The notes beneath the pieces are model-generated. The model was not told where the DNA came from. It saw only the letters and a list, made by a program, of their open reading frames with translations, and searched no databases. A DNA stretch of 64,000 bases from a virus, in IMG/VR virus record IMGVR_UViG_3300032562_000003, positions 62,001-126,000 of that record. One strand, given 5' to 3'. Both the position numbers and the translations under genes were made by a program. The first letter of the stretch is position 1; each line of letters opens with the position of its first letter. Positions 2,231-15,048 of this stretch are shown piece after piece.

Positions 2231-3112
2231 TTACGTTCCCCATTGGTTCTTCCAGAGCGTGACCTGCAATCTATCACTATAACGAAGCCCATGCTTCATT
2301 GCTGCTAGTGCCACGTTCTTGTTATTCAGTTGATACACACTTTCTACGCCACCAACTGGCATCAGATAAACATCACCCGTAAATCCAGCATCACGGTACA
2401 CTTGAGTCGTTTCTAAGGCCTCATCAATGTCATTTTCTGTAGCTACAACAAACTTTAGATACGTGTGTCCAACTTCCTCATAGCTGCATACGATATCGGG
2501 CTGAATCGCCTTCTCGCGTGCTTCGCCCGAGCAGCTTAGTTTGGCACTGACAGAAAACGTAATCTCACGATCCTTGTCATCTGAACCAAATCCTAACTTT
2601 CCACCTTCATACACCCAATCCTCTAGATAGTGTCTAAGTTCATGAGTAAGCGGCTGGGTGCCATTTGTCTCAAAGGTGATTTCTCGCAGACCCTTCATTT
2701 TGGGATGACTCAACAAAGACGGATATGATCGTTGCCACGTAAGCAATGGTTCTCCGCCAGTAATAACAAGATGCTCTCGCCTCCATTCATTGAACGGTAG
2801 TATTACCATAATGTCATCAACTATTTCATTGACCGTCTTGAATGGAGACAAGTCCTTGAAGCGAGGATCCCAGCTAGCATAACTGTCACACCCGGTGCTG
2901 ACTAATGGTAGAGATTCATAATTTTCATAAGGAGTATTCTTATGAGCGAAGGCGATAGCATCAACCTCGTCACTTAACTCACCTTTGGGCATTCCGAAAC
3001 CAGCACATTTGAAGTTACAGCCAAACGTGCGTAAAAATACCGACGGGACGCCTTGATATCTTCCCTCGCCTTGAATTGAGTAGAATAACTCACTGATCTT
3101 TATTTTTGTCAT
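2231..3112 (-). CDS. queE: 7-carboxy-7-deazaguanine synthase, QueE-like radical SAM protein
   Basis: The N-terminus 'ELFYSIQGEGRYQGVPSVFL' is the QueE signature and 'VITGGEP' is the SAM-binding GGEP motif. QueE converts 6-carboxy-tetrahydropterin to 7-carboxy-7-deazaguanine with a 4Fe-4S cluster bound by three cysteines. Here C32 and C36 keep the C-x3-C spacing, but the third cysteine appears to be C75 in 'GCDSYASW', which matches the usual 'CDTKHTW' segment after about 38 inserted residues. At 293 aa it is longer than E. coli QueE (about 223). It sits in one overlapping operon with QueD and FolE, which supply its substrate. Confidence 0.88.
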   Translation of the reverse strand: MTKIKISELFYSIQGEGRYQGVPSVFLRTFGCNFKCAGFGMPKGELSDEVDAIAFAHKNTPYENYESLPLVSTGCDSYASWDPRFKDLSPFKTVNEIVDDIMVILPFNEWRREHLVITGGEPLLTWQRSYPSLLSHPKMKGLREITFETNGTQPLTHELRHYLEDWVYEGGKLGFGSDDKDREITFSVSAKLSCSGEAREKAIQPDIVCSYEEVGHTYLKFVVATENDIDEALETTQVYRDAGFTGDVYLMPVGGVESVYQLNNKNVALAAMKHGLRYSDRLQVTLWKNQWGT

Positions 3113-3548
3113 TTTCTTCTTTCAAGTTATCATTTTCGGACTTATGCTGATTACTCGACAAGTATCGTATTAGTTCTTTGTCCGTTGGTTGAACCGCATA
3201 GTTATTTTTGAAAAATATTTCATAACTGTCGCTGCCGTATTTACCAATACCATAGAGCATTGTAGCATCATCATGATCCCAATTCAAATAATCTCGGGTC
3301 ATTCCAAGCAATCTTTTTACCCGAACATTAGTCATGCCTAAAGGAGAGACTACACGTTTGATATCGTCTTCGATAGCTAACAGCAACTTCTCAGGTGTAT
3401 CCCAACTCGTTAAAAACTCAGGTAATACTTTCTTTACTTGCTGCCTGGATGTTTGGTTCAACATGATTACTCCGACCATGTGTTGCCATGGTCCTTTTAT
3501 TTGCTGCTGCACCATCAAGTCGGCTCGCATTCTGTTAGATTTATCCAT
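3090..3548 (-). CDS. HhH-GPD DNA glycosylase, MBD4-like
   Basis: Residues about 20-115 match the endonuclease III/MBD4 fold: 'GVIMLNQTSRQQV', 'PLGMTNVRVKRL', then the helix-hairpin-helix 'LYGIGKYGSDSYEIF', nearly the same as in vertebrate MBD4. D123 in 'QPTDKEL' is at the position of the MBD4 catalytic Asp. Known relatives remove T or U from mismatches; the substrate here is unknown. There is no C-terminal 4Fe-4S cysteine loop. The tail is short, charged and Asn/Lys-rich. The gene overlaps the start of queE by 23 bases and the end of the small membrane gene by 8, so it is part of the deazaguanine operon. It could act on modified or mismatched phage DNA. Confidence 0.78.
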   Translation of the reverse strand: MDKSNRMRADLMVQQQIKGPWQHMVGVIMLNQTSRQQVKKVLPEFLTSWDTPEKLLLAIEDDIKRVVSPLGMTNVRVKRLLGMTRDYLNWDHDDATMLYGIGKYGSDSYEIFFKNNYAVQPTDKELIRYLSSNQHKSENDNLKEENDKNKDQ

Positions 3549-3705
3549 GCCAGTGTCTAATTGCGTTTTCGATAATAAAAATGTTGGTAATCACAGACTG
3601 GGTTATTAAGACTGTTCGAATCCAAGCGATCCGATCAGACTCTATATCACAAGGAGAAGCCTTTTCTCCTAAAGCCTTAGCCCATAATCCCCAAAGTTTA
3701 TTCAC
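3541..3705 (-). CDS. small membrane protein, 54 aa, GTG start
   Basis: The GTG start overlaps the queD stop (GTGA), and the stop overlaps the ATG of the glycosylase gene by 8 bases, so it exactly fills what would otherwise be a 153-base gap in a packed operon. The product begins 'MNKLWGLWAKALGEK' and has one hydrophobic stretch (about residues 28-47, 'WIRTVLITQSVITNIFII') that could span the membrane. The length and both overlaps fit a translationally coupled gene. No function is recognised. Confidence 0.7.
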   Translation of the reverse strand: MNKLWGLWAKALGEKASPCDIESDRIAWIRTVLITQSVITNIFIIENAIRHWHG

Positions 3706-4211
3706 GCAAAAAGGTCCTCATTCCATTCACGGTGCCCTTCTCTGAATGCCATATTGCTTTGAGTCTCGCGCACTTCGACGCGATAGCACCACAGCCGGGC
3801 CGCCTCGGAAGGCCCCCACATTTCAGGAATATAAACTCCATTGACATACTTATAAAGCATGTCGGCTAAGCTTTCGCATCCCAATTTCGGGAGTATAGTT
3901 AACTTCATAAGACCACGCTTTTCTGCTTCTTTATACCAGTCAAGTTCCGGGTCATCAGAACTAACTAATGTGGTATGGTCAAATTGGTCTTCAAGTACCT
4001 TCTTTAGCTCCTTAAGACCGCCATAATCGGCGGCCCAATTACGAACGTCTAGCTCGTTAGTTCCAAAATAGAACTTCATAGAAAAGCTATATCCGTGAAT
4101 CAAATTGCAATGAGAATCTGCTCTCCATTGCCGATAAGCACAAGGAAACGCATCGTGGTATTCCTTTGTACTAGTATATGCATATGATACTGGTTGTAAT
4201 GTCATTTTCAT
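3702..4211 (-). CDS. queD: 6-carboxy-tetrahydropterin synthase, QueD-like
   Basis: The pterin-synthase core is present: 'SHCNLIHGY' (C35, H39) corresponds to the catalytic C-x3-H-G-H block and 'QFDHTTLV' (D78, H79) to the catalytic Asp-His. The last histidine of HGH, normally a zinc ligand, is Tyr41 here. 'RQWRADSHC' just before is an insertion-like segment. QueD turns the FolE product, 7,8-dihydroneopterin triphosphate, into 6-carboxy-tetrahydropterin for QueE. The gene is 6 bases downstream of the Smr-like gene and overlaps the 54-aa gene. The Tyr could mean altered metal binding or a family variant. Confidence 0.85.
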   Translation of the reverse strand: MKMTLQPVSYAYTSTKEYHDAFPCAYRQWRADSHCNLIHGYSFSMKFYFGTNELDVRNWAADYGGLKELKKVLEDQFDHTTLVSSDDPELDWYKEAEKRGLMKLTILPKLGCESLADMLYKYVNGVYIPEMWGPSEAARLWCYRVEVRETQSNMAFREGHREWNEDLFA

Positions 4212-4217
4212 TCTTTC

Positions 4218-4430
4218 TTACGTAAATCGTTCAACGGTTATGATACCGTAACGATACATTTTTGCTTCACAGCCAATTCTTTCTATGACTGCTTCTGCTA
4301 GCTTAATCATTTTTACACTGTTACCACACAGTATGGTAAGCGGAAACTCCTTCTGATTTAACAGAATGAAGTTTTCCACCATAACATCAACGTCTTGATG
4401 TCGTACACCATGTAAATCTAGATTTAGCAT
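4218..4430 (-). CDS. Smr-like domain protein, 70 aa
   Basis: The whole protein resembles a minimal Smr (small MutS-related) domain: 'LDLHGVRHQDVDVMVENFI' matches the LDLHG opening, followed by 'LTILCGNSVKMIKLAEAVI' (the GNS loop) and a final 'YGIITV' strand. Smr domains in MutS2 and small Smr proteins bind or nick branched DNA or cleave RNA. The protein lies between FolE and QueD, overlapping the folE stop by 7 bases. Whether it serves the modification pathway or is only co-transcribed cannot be told. Confidence 0.65.
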   Translation of the reverse strand: MLNLDLHGVRHQDVDVMVENFILLNQKEFPLTILCGNSVKMIKLAEAVIERIGCEAKMYRYGIITVERFT

Positions 4431-5104
4431 TTTCCCATTCTTGCAATGCTTAGGAATTCATTTCTAGCAGCAGGGTCAGTCTTGAATCCACCACCTAAAC
4501 GAACAGTTACCGTTGAAGATCCGGTATCCTCAACACCACGCGATTTCACGCAATAGTGCTGTGCATCAATCATAACTGCAACATCCTCAGTATCTAGAAT
4601 AAATTGCAGAGTATGAAATACCTGTTCAGTCAGTCTCTCTTGAATTTGAGGACGCTTACTGAAGTATTCGACAATGCGATTGATCTTAGACAACCCAAGA
4701 ACCTTATCCTTAGGTACATATGCGACCGTCGCAACTCCATCGATGACCACAAAATGATGCTCACAGTTAGATTGAACGTTCACGTTTCGTTCTACTACCA
4801 TTTCGTTATATTTCATCTTATTCTCTACAGTCGTACACTTCGGGAATGCATCATAATCCAAACCCCAAAATATTTCGTTGCAGTACATTTTAGCAACCCG
4901 CTTTGGCGTTTCAGCCAAGCTGTCGTCTGTTAGATCAAGTCCTAACGTTTTCATAATATGTTCGAAATCTCGTTCGATGATTTCAATCTTGTCTTTACGG
5001 TCTAATCCGTTATCTTTAAACGGAGTTTCTACTCCGACTTTAACAAGATGTTCATGGACGCTACGACCCAGATCGGGGTCCGTTTTGGTTTTGTTGTATG
5101 ACAT
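4424..5104 (-). CDS. folE: GTP cyclohydrolase I
   Basis: Zinc ligands are visible as C114 and H117 in 'SNCEHHF' and C185 in 'QHYCVKSRGVED'; 'GLSKINRIVEYFSKRPQIQE' is the conserved core helix and loop. FolE opens GTP to 7,8-dihydroneopterin triphosphate, the first step to 7-deazaguanines. The length (226 aa) is normal. The start is supported by an AGGA ribosome site about 7 bases upstream. A TAAATAC promoter-like element lies 59 bases upstream, and this is the first gene of the FolE-Smr-QueD-54aa-glycosylase-QueE series. Confidence 0.92.
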   Translation of the reverse strand: MSYNKTKTDPDLGRSVHEHLVKVGVETPFKDNGLDRKDKIEIIERDFEHIMKTLGLDLTDDSLAETPKRVAKMYCNEIFWGLDYDAFPKCTTVENKMKYNEMVVERNVNVQSNCEHHFVVIDGVATVAYVPKDKVLGLSKINRIVEYFSKRPQIQERLTEQVFHTLQFILDTEDVAVMIDAQHYCVKSRGVEDTGSSTVTVRLGGGFKTDPAARNEFLSIARMGKC

Positions 5105-6785: not shown

Positions 6786-6794
6786 CATAAATAC
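6786..6794 (+). promoter_or_regulatory. putative late promoter for HNH gene, CATAAATAC
   Basis: CATAAATAC lies on the plus strand 24 bases before the HNH endonuclease ATG, while the flanking genes run on the other strand. Confidence 0.6.
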
Positions 6795-6817
6795 AATGAT
6801 GAAAGAAAGATTGAACT

Positions 6818-7585
6818 ATGCCTAAACTTCAAGAGCAACATAATTATACTTGCGTATACTGCGGGAATCAAGCAAAATGGATAAGTGTAAATTCTAAGGT
6901 TTTCCGTTGTGTAGAAAAAATTACTCAATGTCCGGGCTTCATCGCAAAGGCAGAATCTTCTAGGAAAAAAAACATTACTCCTGAGGAAAGGAGAGTCCAC
7001 ATGAAGAAGATGAGTGAGGTTGGGAATAAGAAACTTCAGCAACTGCATACTGATCCTAACTGGGTAGAAGAAAAGGGTAAGAAAATTTCTGATGCTTTGC
7101 AGCAACGAGGTGGACATACCGGTGAACGCAATCCGATGTTCAATAAAAAACATACCTCTCATACTAAACAGATGCAATCATCGCGGGCATCAAACAGATC
7201 ACCTGAGTCATATCAAAAAGCTACACTGACAAAAATAGAACGTGGAATTTCTATACCGAAAGAACTCAAGACAGAATGGGAATTATATAGAGAGCAAGTC
7301 ACTAATTTCACTAATACTAGCTGGAAGTATGCAGAACATATTATTAATCCGAACAATCTAAAAAGAGGAAATGAATACGAACTAGATCACCGATTTAGCA
7401 TTACAGAGGGATTCAAACAAAGTATTCCACCTGAAATTATAGGCCATGCTGCCAATCTAGAACTGTTATTAAAAAGCGATAATAGATCAAAACGGACAAA
7501 ATGTTCCATCACTAAAGAAGAACTTTATGCTGTGGTAAAAGTTAGTTCTGCTCCATTTTCTCCGTCTTCACTCACTGATATTTGA
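6818..7585 (+). CDS. HNH homing endonuclease with NUMOD3-type motif
   Basis: An N-terminal 'CVYCGNQAKW...C...CPGF' zinc-binding cluster is followed by a basic linker with a NUMOD3-like 'GERNPMFNKKHT' (about residues 108-119), and a C-terminal HNH-type site 'YELDHRFSITEGF' to 'HAANLELLLKSDNRSKRTK' (about 188-230). Such free-standing enzymes cut cognate DNA lacking the gene and spread by repair. It lies on the strand opposite its neighbours, has its own late-type promoter, and its last 61 bases overlap the 3' end of the convergent gene at 7525-7971. The stranded tail at 6647-6757 marks the invasion site. Confidence 0.85.
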   Translation: MPKLQEQHNYTCVYCGNQAKWISVNSKVFRCVEKITQCPGFIAKAESSRKKNITPEERRVHMKKMSEVGNKKLQQLHTDPNWVEEKGKKISDALQQRGGHTGERNPMFNKKHTSHTKQMQSSRASNRSPESYQKATLTKIERGISIPKELKTEWELYREQVTNFTNTSWKYAEHIINPNNLKRGNEYELDHRFSITEGFKQSIPPEIIGHAANLELLLKSDNRSKRTKCSITKEELYAVVKVSSAPFSPSSLTDI

Positions 7586-8239: not shown

Positions 8240-9790
8240 CTATTCTAAAACTTCTAACATAGCGTCATCGCTATCTTCAACAACTTCTTCGATTTCAGGA
8301 TCAGGTTCTTCTATAGTAAAACACTCCTCAAACTTTGAAAGAGCATTTGTAGCCCTTTTTCCGGAAAACCCTTGTCCGGCCTTCATCTGCTGCCAGAATA
8401 GATTATATTGATCAATCATTGCAAGGCTTTTCTCACGATCCTTTAGAGAAAAAATCTTATCAATAAGATCACCGAATGTGGTACCATCAAACTTGTCCAA
8501 AACCATTTTAGGATTAATACCCGAGTCTGATTTACGATTGGCTTCTTGTACCGCATAAATGTGCCGATATACGTTATGTGCTTGCATCAATGTATAACTA
8601 AGAGTGTCCCAGCTGGTCTTCGTTTCTTTGCCGTGTTGCCCCAGAAAGCCTGGTCCTCTGTAACAGAGATCCTTAACCATCATTATATCAGTTACAGGGC
8701 TATCACTAAACACTTTATGGATGCCGTCTTCCAAAACCGCATCTTTGAACTTGCGAGTATCAGTCGCATAATTTTTGTTTTCAGCAGTTTTTTCCATCGA
8801 ATACGTCCACTTCGTGTTATGTCTAAACGTATTGTTGTTATACGCAAGCCCCTTTGCGGCCGCGTAGAATGGAGACGCACAATCAAACGTGATTTGCAAA
8901 TTTGGATTGTGATACTTGCGTATTGCTCTTTGAATATCGGTGAACAAAATAGCGTATTCTAGAATAGAAGTACCCAAACAGTGAATAAGATCATGTTTGC
9001 CTGGCTCAAGCAGACCATCATGAATGATGTTAACCATACGCTTTAGCATCAGATGCACGTCGATCTTTGTTTGACCACCAAACGCCCATCCGTTGAAATG
9101 ATTGTCTGGGTAAATATTAGGATCGCAATACTTCTTCATTTCTTCATACCAATCATCAGACTGTTTATGATTACGTCCTTGTAGAACGTTTAGAAACTTA
9201 CAACGGCCATCACGATTAGCAATGAAATACTCATTGTTAATATGAGTAGCAGCAATAGCGTCCTCAATGGTTCGAATGCCGTGCACGGACTTACCCGTTT
9301 TGGGGTCTTTGATATGATATGTAGTAAGCGACTGTGAAGGAATGTCGAGACACATACCGTAGTCCATGTACTCGTCCATCCACTTCAAAACCTCAGTGCG
9401 TTTCTTCATGGCCTTCGGGCAGTTAGGATCTTTCCAGTCAGCGGGCCATTGACACTTTAGAATTTGGAATCCACCAGAATCACCTAACATGAATGTATTT
9501 TTACGATCACGCTTACGAATGATGCTCTCATTGTGATCATTCTTCGTAATGTCTAGATTAGCGTGACCAGCTGAATACAGGCCCCACTTGTAAGTGTACA
9601 GTCCTTCTTTTTCGTTCAGAAAATTTAGCTTTTCAACATTACCGTTTAATCCAACAGGTATTCTAGCCGAATCAAAATAGTTTTCACCCTCACGTTGTTT
9701 ACCTAAACCAGCAATAAAAAATGACGATACTGCCGGCAGGAACAAAGCCCAGTCTGACTGGTGTGCGTTTGATAAGTTAATTTGTTCCAA
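8240..9790 (-). CDS. dpdA: DpdA-like DNA transglycosylase (TGT family)
   Basis: The motif 'FMLGDSGGFQIL' carries the DSGGFQ block of tRNA-guanine transglycosylases, with D104 as the expected catalytic Asp; 'LNVLQGRN', 'GWAFGGQTK' and 'DLIHCLGTS' correspond to the barrel strands conserved in the DpdA group. DpdA enzymes exchange guanine in DNA for a 7-deazaguanine such as preQ0. With FolE, QueD and QueE 3-6 kb away, the phage probably modifies its own DNA against restriction. The start appears to be TTG, with no strong ribosome site, and overlaps the upstream gene by 14 bases. The acidic tail (about 490-516) is unusual. At 516 aa it is longer than bacterial TGT. Confidence 0.82.
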   Translation of the reverse strand: MEQINLSNAHQSDWALFLPAVSSFFIAGLGKQREGENYFDSARIPVGLNGNVEKLNFLNEKEGLYTYKWGLYSAGHANLDITKNDHNESIIRKRDRKNTFMLGDSGGFQILKCQWPADWKDPNCPKAMKKRTEVLKWMDEYMDYGMCLDIPSQSLTTYHIKDPKTGKSVHGIRTIEDAIAATHINNEYFIANRDGRCKFLNVLQGRNHKQSDDWYEEMKKYCDPNIYPDNHFNGWAFGGQTKIDVHLMLKRMVNIIHDGLLEPGKHDLIHCLGTSILEYAILFTDIQRAIRKYHNPNLQITFDCASPFYAAAKGLAYNNNTFRHNTKWTYSMEKTAENKNYATDTRKFKDAVLEDGIHKVFSDSPVTDIMMVKDLCYRGPGFLGQHGKETKTSWDTLSYTLMQAHNVYRHIYAVQEANRKSDSGINPKMVLDKFDGTTFGDLIDKIFSLKDREKSLAMIDQYNLFWQQMKAGQGFSGKRATNALSKFEECFTIEEPDPEIEEVVEDSDDAMLEVLE

Positions 9791-10952: not shown

Positions 10953-12197
10953 TTAGCCGAAAGTAAACAACGAACTAAATGTACTATTAGTATTGGTGTC
11001 ATATCTGATTTTCCAATCTAACACACCTAACAGGTTGTCTATCTTTTCATCCACTAGTTTACGTTCCATATCAAGATCATCGAATGGTAGTTCTAGGAAC
11101 CATTTTGGAAGTCGTAATTCATCGGTGGGATATGCGATTGAAGTAATACCTAAGGGATTTGATTTTAGTGTACACACCACAACCTTCATGCCGTCGACAA
11201 TTTTTTGGCTGTACTGGTCGCTATTCATCTTACGCAGTTGATTGTAGTGAATGGCGGCCTTAGCATGACCAACACTGCACTTACCGGTTCTCTCATACTT
11301 AATGGTATGATTTGTCAAATTATTAACTGATTTAGGTGAACCCTTAGTCCAACTGTCTTGTTCTGAAAGCTTTCTTTTAAACTCTTTGATCTTTTCGATC
11401 ACTTCGTCTCGGCCCTTACCCTCTTGAATTACCATACAAAGAATTTCCATAAGAAATTCCTGAACGTACTTAGGTGTATCTGCACGCTTTAGGTCTAGAC
11501 CCATAGCTTTGATTTCACCTAATTTACCTTCCTTATCCTTGCGTTTACCTTCTTTGTCGAAGATGTTGATTGCGTAACGCTTCTTTGTAATAAAGATAGA
11601 ACGATCACCGATCAATTCTCTACCAGCTTTGATGACCTCACCGTTCTTGCGGGGACAATGGAACGCTTTCTCCATGAAAGCAGGAAAGCTAGCGTTAGTT
11701 TGCTCTGCGATGTTGTCGTACAGTTCGATGCAAACTTCCTTGTTCCATTCTATTTCACCTTGTTCGATTCTATCTTTTAATATAGAATATGCAGTGAAGT
11801 AGCAGGAGTCAGTATCACCGTAGATGATCGCCTCACCTTCGTGAGTGTATTCACCTGCAATGATTTCATTGATCTGGCTCATCATGTGCCTAACAATTTG
11901 ACGACCAGACAAAGTAACTGACTGTCCGATCCGCTTATCATAAAACCTGCAATATTCGTTCAAAATGGATCCATATGTAGAGTTCAAGAGAATTTTTTTT
12001 ACTAACTGTCGTTTGTCCCAATACTCCATTGCTAACCCCCAAACTGATTTATATGCTTCCATTGGATGAATGGAGCGGTCTCGTATTTCTAATCCGAAAC
12101 CAGTTATGTATTCAACAAGACCAATTTTGTCTTTGTTTTGAATAAAATCATTCACTTTATTAGTATCGTATTCCAATATAATTTTCGTTAGATTCAT
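10953..12197 (-). CDS. DNA polymerase family B, C-terminal half
   Basis: It contains motif B 'KKILLNSTYGSIL' (about residues 65-77) and the catalytic palm motif C 'IYGDTDSCYF' (about 125-134), then the thumb. The C-terminus 'STFSSLFTFG' resembles the clamp-binding tail of T4 gp43. The exonuclease and motif A are missing because they lie in the separate N-terminal gene at 13112-14791. The two parts are separated by a homing endonuclease gene on the other strand. The break falls in the fingers, between motifs A and B, so the two polypeptides would have to assemble. The ribosome site is weak (GAG). Confidence 0.88.
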   Translation of the reverse strand: MNLTKIILEYDTNKVNDFIQNKDKIGLVEYITGFGLEIRDRSIHPMEAYKSVWGLAMEYWDKRQLVKKILLNSTYGSILNEYCRFYDKRIGQSVTLSGRQIVRHMMSQINEIIAGEYTHEGEAIIYGDTDSCYFTAYSILKDRIEQGEIEWNKEVCIELYDNIAEQTNASFPAFMEKAFHCPRKNGEVIKAGRELIGDRSIFITKKRYAINIFDKEGKRKDKEGKLGEIKAMGLDLKRADTPKYVQEFLMEILCMVIQEGKGRDEVIEKIKEFKRKLSEQDSWTKGSPKSVNNLTNHTIKYERTGKCSVGHAKAAIHYNQLRKMNSDQYSQKIVDGMKVVVCTLKSNPLGITSIAYPTDELRLPKWFLELPFDDLDMERKLVDEKIDNLLGVLDWKIRYDTNTNSTFSSLFTFG

Positions 12198-12212
12198 ATT
12201 TTTGCTCTATAA

Positions 12213-12221
12213 GATAAATAC
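12213..12221 (+). promoter_or_regulatory. putative late promoter for EDxHD endonuclease, GATAAATAC
   Basis: GATAAATAC lies on the plus strand 31 bases before the endonuclease ATG, in the gap between the polymerase C-half start and the endonuclease start. Confidence 0.6.
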
Positions 12222-12251
12222 ATATGGTGCTTTTTTAAAGGAGAGTCGTAT

Positions 12252-13151
12252 ATGGTGGATTGTGCTATTTGTAACAAAGAAATGAAACGAGTGACTAGTA
12301 GTCATTTAAAAACTCACAATATAACTACGGCTGAATACTTAGCGCAATTTCCAGGATCTGTTTTATTTTCTGATGAGCTAAGGCATGCATACGGAAAACA
12401 CGCGAGAGATAACAACCCAATGCATGATCCAGTTAGTGTAGAAAAAGTAAGAAACGCATTAACTGGTAAACGAAAAACAGAGGAACATAAACAAAAATTA
12501 TCAACCGCACGAACCGGAGTATCTTGGGGAACCCACACACCTGAACATAAAGAATACATGAAGGTTGTCAGCAAGATTAATATGGAAGAGAGAATAGCCA
12601 ATGGATGGAAACAGAAACCGTGGACTGCGGAGAGAAGAGCCAAACAGTCTACTAAAATGATAGGAAATACCATTGGGTTAGGCGGCTCCGGAAATAAGGG
12701 TAAAAAGCTTGATCTATCAGATAACCAACGACGCAATAGGAGTAAAAAACGAGTAGAATTCATGTCTAAGAACGATACTCCTAAAAAACATACTTCTATT
12801 GAATTGTCGTTTATTGAATTTTGCAAGAATAATGATATATTGTACATTCATCAGCATCCTATACATACTGAAAAGGGTAGTTGGTTATTTGATTTCTTAT
12901 TACCAAATCTAAATTTACTAGTAGAAGTTGATGGTGAATATTGGCACACATCTAAAAGACAAATAAATCGAGATTTAATAAAAAATAACGTGGCATTGGC
13001 AAGCGGACATACAATATTGCGCTTATCAGACACTAACCTTGATTTCTCCTTTATCTTCGGCAGCAAGGATGCAATCATTTCGCATACTAATGGCATAATG
13101 GAAAGTAGGATTCAATCGGTAAAAAAATCATCAGGTAAAGATTTACCATAG
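12252..13151 (+). CDS. Vsr/EDxHD-like homing endonuclease inside the split polymerase locus
   Basis: The N-terminus 'CAICNKEMKRVTSSHLKTH' is a C2H2-like DNA-binding finger; NUMOD3-like repeats follow (for example 'NALTGKRKTEEHKQKLS', about residues 74-90). The C-terminal domain 'ELSFIEFCKNNDILY' to 'FDFLLPNLNLLVEVDGEYWH' (about 178-233) matches the very-short-patch-repair-like EDxHD nuclease fold. An AAAGGAG ribosome site precedes the ATG. Transcribed opposite to the polymerase halves, it overlaps the N-half 3' end by 40 bases. Confidence 0.8.
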   Translation: MVDCAICNKEMKRVTSSHLKTHNITTAEYLAQFPGSVLFSDELRHAYGKHARDNNPMHDPVSVEKVRNALTGKRKTEEHKQKLSTARTGVSWGTHTPEHKEYMKVVSKINMEERIANGWKQKPWTAERRAKQSTKMIGNTIGLGGSGNKGKKLDLSDNQRRNRSKKRVEFMSKNDTPKKHTSIELSFIEFCKNNDILYIHQHPIHTEKGSWLFDFLLPNLNLLVEVDGEYWHTSKRQINRDLIKNNVALASGHTILRLSDTNLDFSFIFGSKDAIISHTNGIMESRIQSVKKSSGKDLP

Positions 13152-14791
13152 AGTATTTCTCTAACTGCGTATTGTTTTTTCTGAAGTTTTTTACGTTCAG
13201 TATACCACCGAGAAAGTAGTCCTGGAATCACTCCTTCTTTTTCGTAAGTAAAGATGGTACCATTTGCTGAAAGGATCCATGGTCTGTTACTGTCGAAGAT
13301 CATCTTCCAAATTTCAGCAGCAGACATTTGTACACTTCTACCATCTTCATAGTCTATCCAAAGGGTAGTTCCGCGTTCTTGATTCATGATTGCTGTATAC
13401 TCAATTGAGCCAAACAATCCTTCCCACAGAATTGCACCAATGACGCCTTCTTCCTCGCTGTCATCTCCGAACTTTTTCTTCTTCTTGTTCTTCTTTTCAG
13501 AAGCCAATCTCATGCTCTTTTCGTGCATGTATTGGTCAGTCAGTGTTTGACGAACTTGACCTATGATGGTTTCCGGAGACATGTTCAGCGCTCGAATGTC
13601 AGACGGATACAGAGAGTTGATGTCAACTGCACCAGGATATTCGTGCATTCCTTGTTTAGGAATAGCAACAAACGCACCAGCTGCCGGAAACCCAGTATCT
13701 TCTTTGGGCTTCTTGTTAGGTACGATCATTCCACGTGCGTGAGCTTCATTGAAGATAGCCATTTCGATCATCTGCACCGAACCCATAACTGTCGGAAGAA
13801 GTACGCTATTCTCGTGTGCTAGTGCGTTAGCAAGATCAAGGAACTTTAGCTTATTGTGAATTTTAACCATAAGCATCGTGTCTTGTCTGTTATACTCCAC
13901 GAACGTTTTAAAGTCCTGATTGTATAACTGATCCAAACTGCCTTCGTACTGAGTTTTACGTTCACCTACTTCCATCTCACCGATAGCATCAAGAGAATAA
14001 CTATGACGAGACTCGTAGTTGTACTTCTTATACAGTTGAAGGTAGTCCATATGAATTCTACCAACTAGATCGTATGTTTCTTCTTCCTTGCCGAAACGTT
14101 CATAGGTACGAGTCTTAGGGAGTTTCCCCAGCAGACAAAACTTACGAGTATCGTTTTTAGACATGATTCTAGTAACGCGATTAACCGTATACGGAATGTC
14201 GTATCCCTCTGAGTTCCAGCCAGTTAGAATGTCAGCATCTTCGATCAACTCAAAGAAGGTTTCAAACATCTCTATTTCAGAACGAAACAGAAAGCAGTTT
14301 GGAAAATCTTTAGTTAACTCTTGCGCAGTTTCATCTGTCATGTGCTTAGGTGGCATGACCAACGTAATCAGTTGATCAAGCCAATCTAGATACATTGAGA
14401 TTGCAGTTACTGGATTGAACGGATCACTAGTAGGACTAAATCCTCGCTCAGGATCAAAGTCCACTTCAATGTCGAAAAAGCAAGTATGAAGCTTTGGTGG
14501 TTCAGCATTAAGGTAGTTATCAGCCAAACACCTAAATACTACGTTAACGTCGCTCTCAAATAGTTTTTTGTTACTATGTATTCTGCGTTCCTTCTCGAAT
14601 TCGCTACGTTTACGAGTAGAGAACCGAGACAGCGGATCACCGTAAATAGAACGATACTTTCCTTTAGGATCAGCATAGTACATTACGTAGTTCGTAGGGA
14701 ACTCTTTGTATGCACGTTTACCTTCAGGAGTACGTTCTACAACGTGGATTCGATCTGCGTTGGAATCTAATACTGCATCGACATATGCCAT
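13112..14791 (-). CDS. DNA polymerase family B, N-terminal half
   Basis: It carries the 3'-5' exonuclease motifs: Exo I 'CFFDIEVDFD', Exo II 'LTGWNSEGYDIPY' and Exo III 'YNRQDTMLM', and the palm motif A 'DINSLYPSDI'. It ends at 'REILYGKSLPDDFFTD', just where fingers residues leading to motif B should begin; motifs B and C are in the gene at 10953-12197. The combined 973 aa is close to T4 gp43 (898). The start shares one base with the stop of the upstream DsbA-like gene (TAATG). Confidence 0.9.
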   Translation of the reverse strand: MAYVDAVLDSNADRIHVVERTPEGKRAYKEFPTNYVMYYADPKGKYRSIYGDPLSRFSTRKRSEFEKERRIHSNKKLFESDVNVVFRCLADNYLNAEPPKLHTCFFDIEVDFDPERGFSPTSDPFNPVTAISMYLDWLDQLITLVMPPKHMTDETAQELTKDFPNCFLFRSEIEMFETFFELIEDADILTGWNSEGYDIPYTVNRVTRIMSKNDTRKFCLLGKLPKTRTYERFGKEEETYDLVGRIHMDYLQLYKKYNYESRHSYSLDAIGEMEVGERKTQYEGSLDQLYNQDFKTFVEYNRQDTMLMVKIHNKLKFLDLANALAHENSVLLPTVMGSVQMIEMAIFNEAHARGMIVPNKKPKEDTGFPAAGAFVAIPKQGMHEYPGAVDINSLYPSDIRALNMSPETIIGQVRQTLTDQYMHEKSMRLASEKKNKKKKKFGDDSEEEGVIGAILWEGLFGSIEYTAIMNQERGTTLWIDYEDGRSVQMSAAEIWKMIFDSNRPWILSANGTIFTYEKEGVIPGLLSRWYTERKKLQKKQYAVREILYGKSLPDDFFTD

Positions 14792-15048
14792 TAATTAGCT
14801 CGACCAACAGTCTCCAAAATGGTATTGAGTTCCTCATTTTCCTCGTTAGTTTGTGCGAGGCGCTGCTTCTGTGCAACCTTGATAGCCTTCTTAAGAATGG
14901 CTGGCTTTATTTCTAGTTCTTCTGCGATTGCCTTAATGGTGTCGTTTAGACCTTCATTAAGAGTTTCAATTTCTTGTAGGACACCTAAGCCCTCGTTAAC
15001 CAGTTGGGTCAACTTAATCTTTGCGTCAGTGTTGAATACTCTAGACAT
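14791..15048 (-). CDS. DsbA-like phage DNA-binding / transcription protein, 85 aa
   Basis: A small helical acidic protein; 'FNTDAKIKLTQLVNEGLGV' and 'TIKAIAEELEIKPAILKKAI' resemble the small T4-type DsbA family, which in T4 binds double-stranded DNA near late promoters. A strong AGAAGGAG ribosome site precedes the ATG. It is coupled to the polymerase gene through a TAATG overlap. The assignment is by recollection of the family pattern and could be wrong. Confidence 0.55.
   Translation of the reverse strand: MSRVFNTDAKIKLTQLVNEGLGVLQEIETLNEGLNDTIKAIAEELEIKPAILKKAIKVAQKQRLAQTNEENEELNTILETVGRAN

Follow-up and report, generated by a model that had tools for sequence, protein, structure and literature searches.

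How an endonuclease gene can interrupt an essential gene, with neither an intron nor an intein, and leave that gene working is an open question, and it is raised by a locus of the virus record IMGVR_UViG_3300032562_000003. In the window analyzed here (64,000 bases, corresponding to bases 62001-126000 of the 258,859-base record), two minus-strand open reading frames (ORFs) encoding the parts of a gp43-type DNA polymerase flank a plus-strand gene for a putative EDxHD homing endonuclease. The evidence presented below makes it probable that the replicative polymerase of this phage is made as two polypeptides assembling without covalent joining, and that the split was spread by a homing cassette. 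A previous reading of the sequence alone (hereafter, the sequence-only reading) had described two polymerase ORFs lying 914 bases apart, with the exonuclease domain and motif A in one and motifs B and C in the other, and our analysis recovered the same coordinates throughout. In window positions, the features of the locus are as follows:

13112-14791, minus strand: N-half of the gp43-type DNA polymerase (559 aa), with the exonuclease domain, motif A and the first fingers helix; Pfam DNA_pol_B_exo1 and the first part of DNA_pol_B
13112-13174, minus strand: C-terminal tail of the N-half (residues ~540-559 and stop codon), not in intact close relatives and common to other split polymerases
12252-13151, plus strand: putative EDxHD homing endonuclease gene (299 aa), antisense to the polymerase and overlapping the end of the N-half by 40 bases (13112-13151)
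12214-12221, plus strand: ATAAATAC, very probable T4-type late promoter element before the endonuclease gene, assigned on octamer placement in the window
10953-12197, minus strand: C-half of the gp43-type DNA polymerase (414 aa), with the second fingers helix, motifs B and C and the thumb; the rest of Pfam DNA_pol_B
12051-12197, minus strand: N-terminal head of the C-half (residues 1-49), not in intact close relatives, homologous to the head of the Agrobacterium phage Atu_ph07 polymerase; predicted alpha3-beta2 element

A polymerase in two ORFs around an endonuclease gene

Each polymerase half has its own start and its own stop, and the gap between them spans 12198-13111. Motif A (DINSLYPS) is located in the N-half, and motifs B (KKILLNSTYG) and C (YGDTDS) in the C-half. 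The alignment of the N-half to RB69 gp43 ends at residue 486 and that of the C-half begins at residue 556, which puts the break in the fingers, between motifs A and B, where the sequence-only reading had placed it. With its exonuclease domain, its three motifs and two ORFs parted at the 43A/43B position, the locus is a gp43-type family B DNA polymerase in split form. The possibility of an assembly error, which the sequence-only reading had raised against its own proposal, is ruled out by independent assemblies. IMG/VR contigs of other metagenomes keep the same arrangement: contigs L003-L005 are identical to the window over 9-11 kb, L093 is 99.8% identical across the part covered, and L002 presents 38 mismatches in 11.2 kb, with one in the N-half gene and none in the C-half or endonuclease gene. 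About 30 of the L002 differences cluster in ~170 bases (14845-15013) of a small gene (14791-15048; weak Phage_DsbA match), as if this stretch had been exchanged.

The opposite-strand gene was likewise correctly described, down to its exact 40-base overlap with the N-half. An alignment of nine family members revealed invariant residues that include T181, E184, D214, H232, D241 and K244, and known features of the family assign E184, D214, H232 and D241 to the EDxHD motif. The only strong Protein Data Bank (PDB) match of the family profile is 3r3p, a 'mobile intron protein' (E=4.7e-9) that we take to be the catalytic domain of I-Bth0305I. Pfam searches yielded weak DUF559, NUMOD3 and ROS/MUCR-like matches for the window protein, and weak or borderline Vsr matches for its relatives. 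These features fit an EDxHD homing endonuclease whose N-terminal part is zinc-finger-like; such an enzyme would be expected to cleave alleles lacking its gene at specific sites and to home into them, and the distribution of the gene is consistent with this. Its sequence is conserved (window versus L092; proportion of synonymous differences, ps, 0.78; of nonsynonymous differences, pn, 0.28), and a single weak 39-aa match is all that resembles it elsewhere in the genome. No relatives of the window endonuclease were found among 50,697 phage records at an E-value of 1e-5; in isolated phages none were found for the L101 endonuclease either, and the endonucleases of two other loci returned only distant Bacillus phage matches. 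The endonuclease tree contains many weak branches and does not decide the number of orientation flips.

The octamer ATAAATAC occurs ten times in the window, nine of them scored just upstream of a gene on the same strand (binomial p about 1e-11) and the tenth also preceding an ATG. Because of this placement, which the other anagrams tested do not show, ATAAATAC is very probably the phage's own form of the T4-type late promoter, in line with the late promoter that the sequence-only reading had attributed to the endonuclease gene. The exact T4 late consensus, TATAAATA, was rejected as the promoter of this phage, with a single site and a frequency below chance. Among related endonuclease genes, 9 of 11 are preceded by a TAAATA element at 11-45 bases, versus 1.3% of random positions. 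A second plus-strand gene of the window (6787-7585; 255 aa, NUMOD3 match) has an ATAAATAC late promoter sequence 24 bases upstream and is possibly another free-standing homing endonuclease.

Shared polymerase ends and the probable mobility of the split

Close relatives of the window polymerase (75-90% identical) are encoded by one intact gene with a short fingertip, and comparison with them, as the sequence-only reading had proposed, qualifies the idea of an endonuclease that invaded and cut an intact gene. The endonuclease gene does sit between the two halves, and the break is in the fingers, but cutting an intact gene in two would not by itself give the ends observed: the N-half carries a tail of ~20 residues, and the C-half a head of ~49 residues, of fingertip sequence that the intact close relatives lack. 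Comparable extra ends are present in split polymerases with the endonuclease antisense (L092, L097, L100 and L157) and in others with the endonuclease in sense (L094, L096, L098, L099, L101 and L103), so that antisense is one of two endonuclease orientations at the break site. The tails share a G-x-x-(I/L)-P-like motif. Profiles built from these ends find the corresponding ends of the split Atu_ph07 polymerase, the head profile matching the head of its C-half (E=6e-10) and the tail profile the tail of its N-half (E=0.0011), in both cases better than all shuffles. In L157 the halves are 6.9 kb apart, with the endonuclease gene adjoining the C-half and several unrelated genes in between; the same layout, with the endonuclease beside the C-half and 6.9 kb between the halves, spans positions 1872-12114 of L177, from L157's record (a 543-kb viral contig).

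In the predicted structure of the C-half, the first 59 residues (block-mean predicted local distance difference test, pLDDT, 79-92) comprise three short helices and a beta hairpin and extend into the long second fingers helix; the remainder of the model is less certain, and its top PDB matches are RB69 gp43 chains. On this model, the head probably folds as an element of the fingertip, and the break would lie in a surface loop at which two chains could meet. A predicted structure for L148, an intact polymerase with a long fingertip, had a mean pLDDT of 42 and was not used. Head and tail are AT-rich (GC 0.32, versus 0.42 in the body of the N-half), although they are too short for this to prove foreign origin.

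Machine classification of the loci yielded 160 intact genes; every endonuclease carrier is split, and Atu_ph07 is split without an endonuclease. On the tree inferred for the N-domain, every split gene of the main clade lies beside intact ones (window/L006, L092/L247 and L099/L225), and the eight split rows correspond to eight changes, whereas an ancestral split would require 25 precise losses. The approximately unbiased (AU) test rejects both a clade of the window and L092 (p=0.00025) and a clade of all eight split rows (p=0.0005). A single ancient split with vertical descent is hence rejected by the tree tests for the main clade, as distinct from the long-fingertip outgroup.

Genes with homologous heads are not each other's nearest relatives, which makes it most likely that the head moved together with the endonuclease. 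Nucleotide identity between split L099 and intact L225 is ~0.83 in the gene body; it falls to 0.58 and 0.31 over the final codons ahead of the cassette, and returns from 0.69 in the first codons after it to 0.93-0.98, a profile as expected for short co-conversion tracts. The moving unit was probably tail-endonuclease-head, as suggested by the fact that tail and head are not in the intact sisters and are common to other split polymerases, in either orientation, and to Atu_ph07.

Other elements also enter this gene. L097, L098, L101 and L103 harbor a small ORF-less group I intron (RF00028) at the Asn-Ser/Tyr-Gly codons of polymerase motif B, near the free-standing endonuclease gene, and are candidates for collaborative homing. 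A second fracture, at motif C (YGD/TDS) and with intein-like sequence, is seen in L092, L094, L097 and L098; the N and C intein halves of L094 and L097 flank an endonuclease-like ORF. Given these introns at motif B and intein-like halves at motif C in its relatives, the polymerase gene appears as a repeated target of mobile elements.

Comparison with known split genes

Split gp43 genes are already known. In Aeromonas phages 25 and 44RR, as in the window, a gp43-type polymerase is encoded in two ORFs, 43A and 43B, broken at the same alignment position in the fingers. Phage 25 harbors a homing endonuclease gene between 43A and 43B and a group I intron in 43B, whereas in 44RR no endonuclease gene occupies that place. 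The endonuclease of phage 25 is of the GIY-YIG type (weak Pfam matches) and in sense, whereas that of the window is EDxHD-like, antisense and preceded by a putative late promoter; the 44RR head has no detectable homology to the head profile of the window type. Phage 25 43A and 43B co-purify and are active (PMC2988022). Another counterpart is the polymerase of Atu_ph07, annotated as two coding sequences (ASV44732.1 and AUZ95050.1), which shares with the window the break and the homologous head and tail; it differs in having no endonuclease, a gap of 18 bases, a GTG start for the C-half and a C-half only ~46% identical. In the Atu_ph07 genome paper two products are given for the polymerase, and neither 'split' nor 'homing' appears (PMC6102473).

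Other systems resemble the window in layout. In the nrdA/mobE system of phage Aeh1 a homing endonuclease gene also splits a gene, but the gene is a different one and the endonuclease belongs to the HNH family; to our knowledge, no shared tail/head cassette accompanies it. The Aeh1 nrdA gene is essential, and the two chains produced from it constitute the active enzyme (PMC2988022). The window differs from fractured genes with split inteins in having no intein at the break and in its antisense endonuclease. Dassa et al. (2009) reportedly described such genes, arranged as half-gene, free-standing endonuclease gene and half-gene, a layout that the window shares, with endonucleases of a Vsr-like family. 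In collaborative homing, exemplified by F-CphI and the psbA intron of cyanophage S-PM2, the target gene contains an ORF-less group I intron and a free-standing endonuclease gene is located nearby, an arrangement seen in L097, L098, L101 and L103 and not in the window, which yields no Rfam match to a group I intron. F-CphI, moreover, uses an Endo VII motif (PMC6083498), unlike the EDxHD motif assigned to the window endonuclease.

Among neighboring genes, the minus-strand region 2231-5104 encodes a QueE-like radical SAM protein and GTP cyclohydrolase I, which suggests 7-deazaguanine modification. A further minus-strand gene (8240-9790) resembles, by eye only, a tRNA-guanine transglycosylase/DpdA-like protein, with no Pfam or PHROG match.

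Competing explanations and the origin of a probable two-subunit polymerase

That the insertion inactivated the polymerase gene, leaving replication of the phage to another polymerase, is very unlikely. A second enzyme could have been missed if the record is incomplete, but no other family A or family B polymerase was found in its 258.9 kb. Both halves are open, their motifs are intact and they are under strong purifying selection (window versus L006, N-half/C-half: ps 0.73/0.79, pn 0.07/0.09; figures that take in the branch to the intact L006). Furthermore, the identical split arrangement recurs in other metagenomes, and Atu_ph07, with the same split, is an isolated phage. Rejoining of the halves into one chain by RNA or protein trans-splicing is extremely improbable, even though the motif B intron and the motif C intein-like halves of relatives attest that splicing elements do invade this gene. 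An intron-type splice yielding one polypeptide was the other outcome that the sequence-only reading had held to be incompatible with its proposal; no match to a group I or group II intron core was obtained with Rfam in the region, and no intein family match with Pfam at the break, so that neither a trans-spliced intron nor a split intein has support there. Each half, moreover, has its own start and stop, the short ends (a tail of only ~20 aa among them) align with polymerase fingers, and only 18 bases separate the Atu_ph07 halves.

Two further explanations concern the head and tail. A simple insertion of the endonuclease gene into a polymerase gene with a long fingertip, which would make head and tail the two parts of that fingertip and imply its loss from the intact close relatives, is rather unlikely. 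Head and tail do align with the contiguous fingertip of intact jumbo-phage polymerases (Phosso, GAP32 and 121Q), the head profile gives a weak match to 121Q at the right position, and long-fingertip genes fall outside the short-fingertip clade on the tree; yet the window gene is nested deep within a clade of intact genes with short fingertips, where this history demands 25 separate precise losses against 8 gains. Such an insertion may nevertheless be how the cassette first originated, in an outgroup. Convergence, with the fingertip loop as a tolerant place hit independently many times and heads and tails as unrelated additions, is distinctly unlikely. Such a history fits the Aeromonas phages, whose polymerase breaks at the same position and involves a different endonuclease family and a head that the profile does not match, but heads from both orientations share the profile that finds the Atu_ph07 head, and the tails share a motif and find the Atu_ph07 tail.

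Several observations weigh against a two-chain polymerase spread by a homing cassette, including the contribution of the intact L006 branch to the selection figures. The Shine-Dalgarno sequence of the C-half is poor and a clear promoter for it is lacking, part of the genome may be missing from the record, and the trees come from quick searches. The co-conversion signal in the window is weak, a modest identity dip (0.64-0.71) at C-half codons 46-90, and is clearer in L099. The head resembles the uninterrupted long fingertips of intact jumbo-phage polymerases weakly (121Q, E=0.009; the others no better than shuffles), so that any origin proposed for head and tail would be tentative. The common break point in Aeromonas phages, whose head lacks a profile match, could also stem from convergence at a tolerant loop.

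A two-chain polymerase spread by homing nonetheless accounts best for these results. We infer non-covalent assembly of the halves from the fingertip position of the break, the selection on both halves, the lack of an intron or intein and the example of phage 25 43A/43B. A break at the fingertip, between the two fingers helices, would make each half a whole structural piece, one with the exonuclease, palm and first fingers helix and the other with the second fingers helix, remaining palm and thumb. Where intact relatives have a short fingertip, the two-chain enzyme would have the dedicated tail and the alpha3-beta2 head, which probably dock with each other. The endonuclease, of EDxHD type, would be a selfish element that homes by cutting polymerase genes lacking it, and its own T4-type promoter would drive late expression. 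Repair from the carrier would copy tail, endonuclease and head, along with a little flanking sequence, into the recipient; since the three are copied together, the split form would be inherited ready-made.

Beyond this locus, we somewhat favor the broader proposal that a mobile 'fingertip cassette' (tail, stop, endonuclease in either orientation, start, head) converts intact gp43 genes, repeatedly and in one step, into working two-subunit polymerases by means of its own docking element, and that in some lineages the endonuclease is later lost (Atu_ph07) or the halves drift apart (L157) while the two-subunit enzyme stays. The EDxHD endonuclease, its antisense placement and the evidence suggesting that the split ends travel with it appear to be new. 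A search of open-licence papers turned up no account of a split polymerase with an antisense endonuclease inside it, although one may have been published elsewhere. The suggested answer to how a homing endonuclease gene can interrupt an essential gene that still works is that the element may bring pre-adapted protein ends, so that split enzymes would spread ready-made. The steps from a one-chain to a two-subunit polymerase become testable with this set of loci, which comprises carriers in both orientations, intact sisters, a split isolate free of the endonuclease and a case of separated halves.

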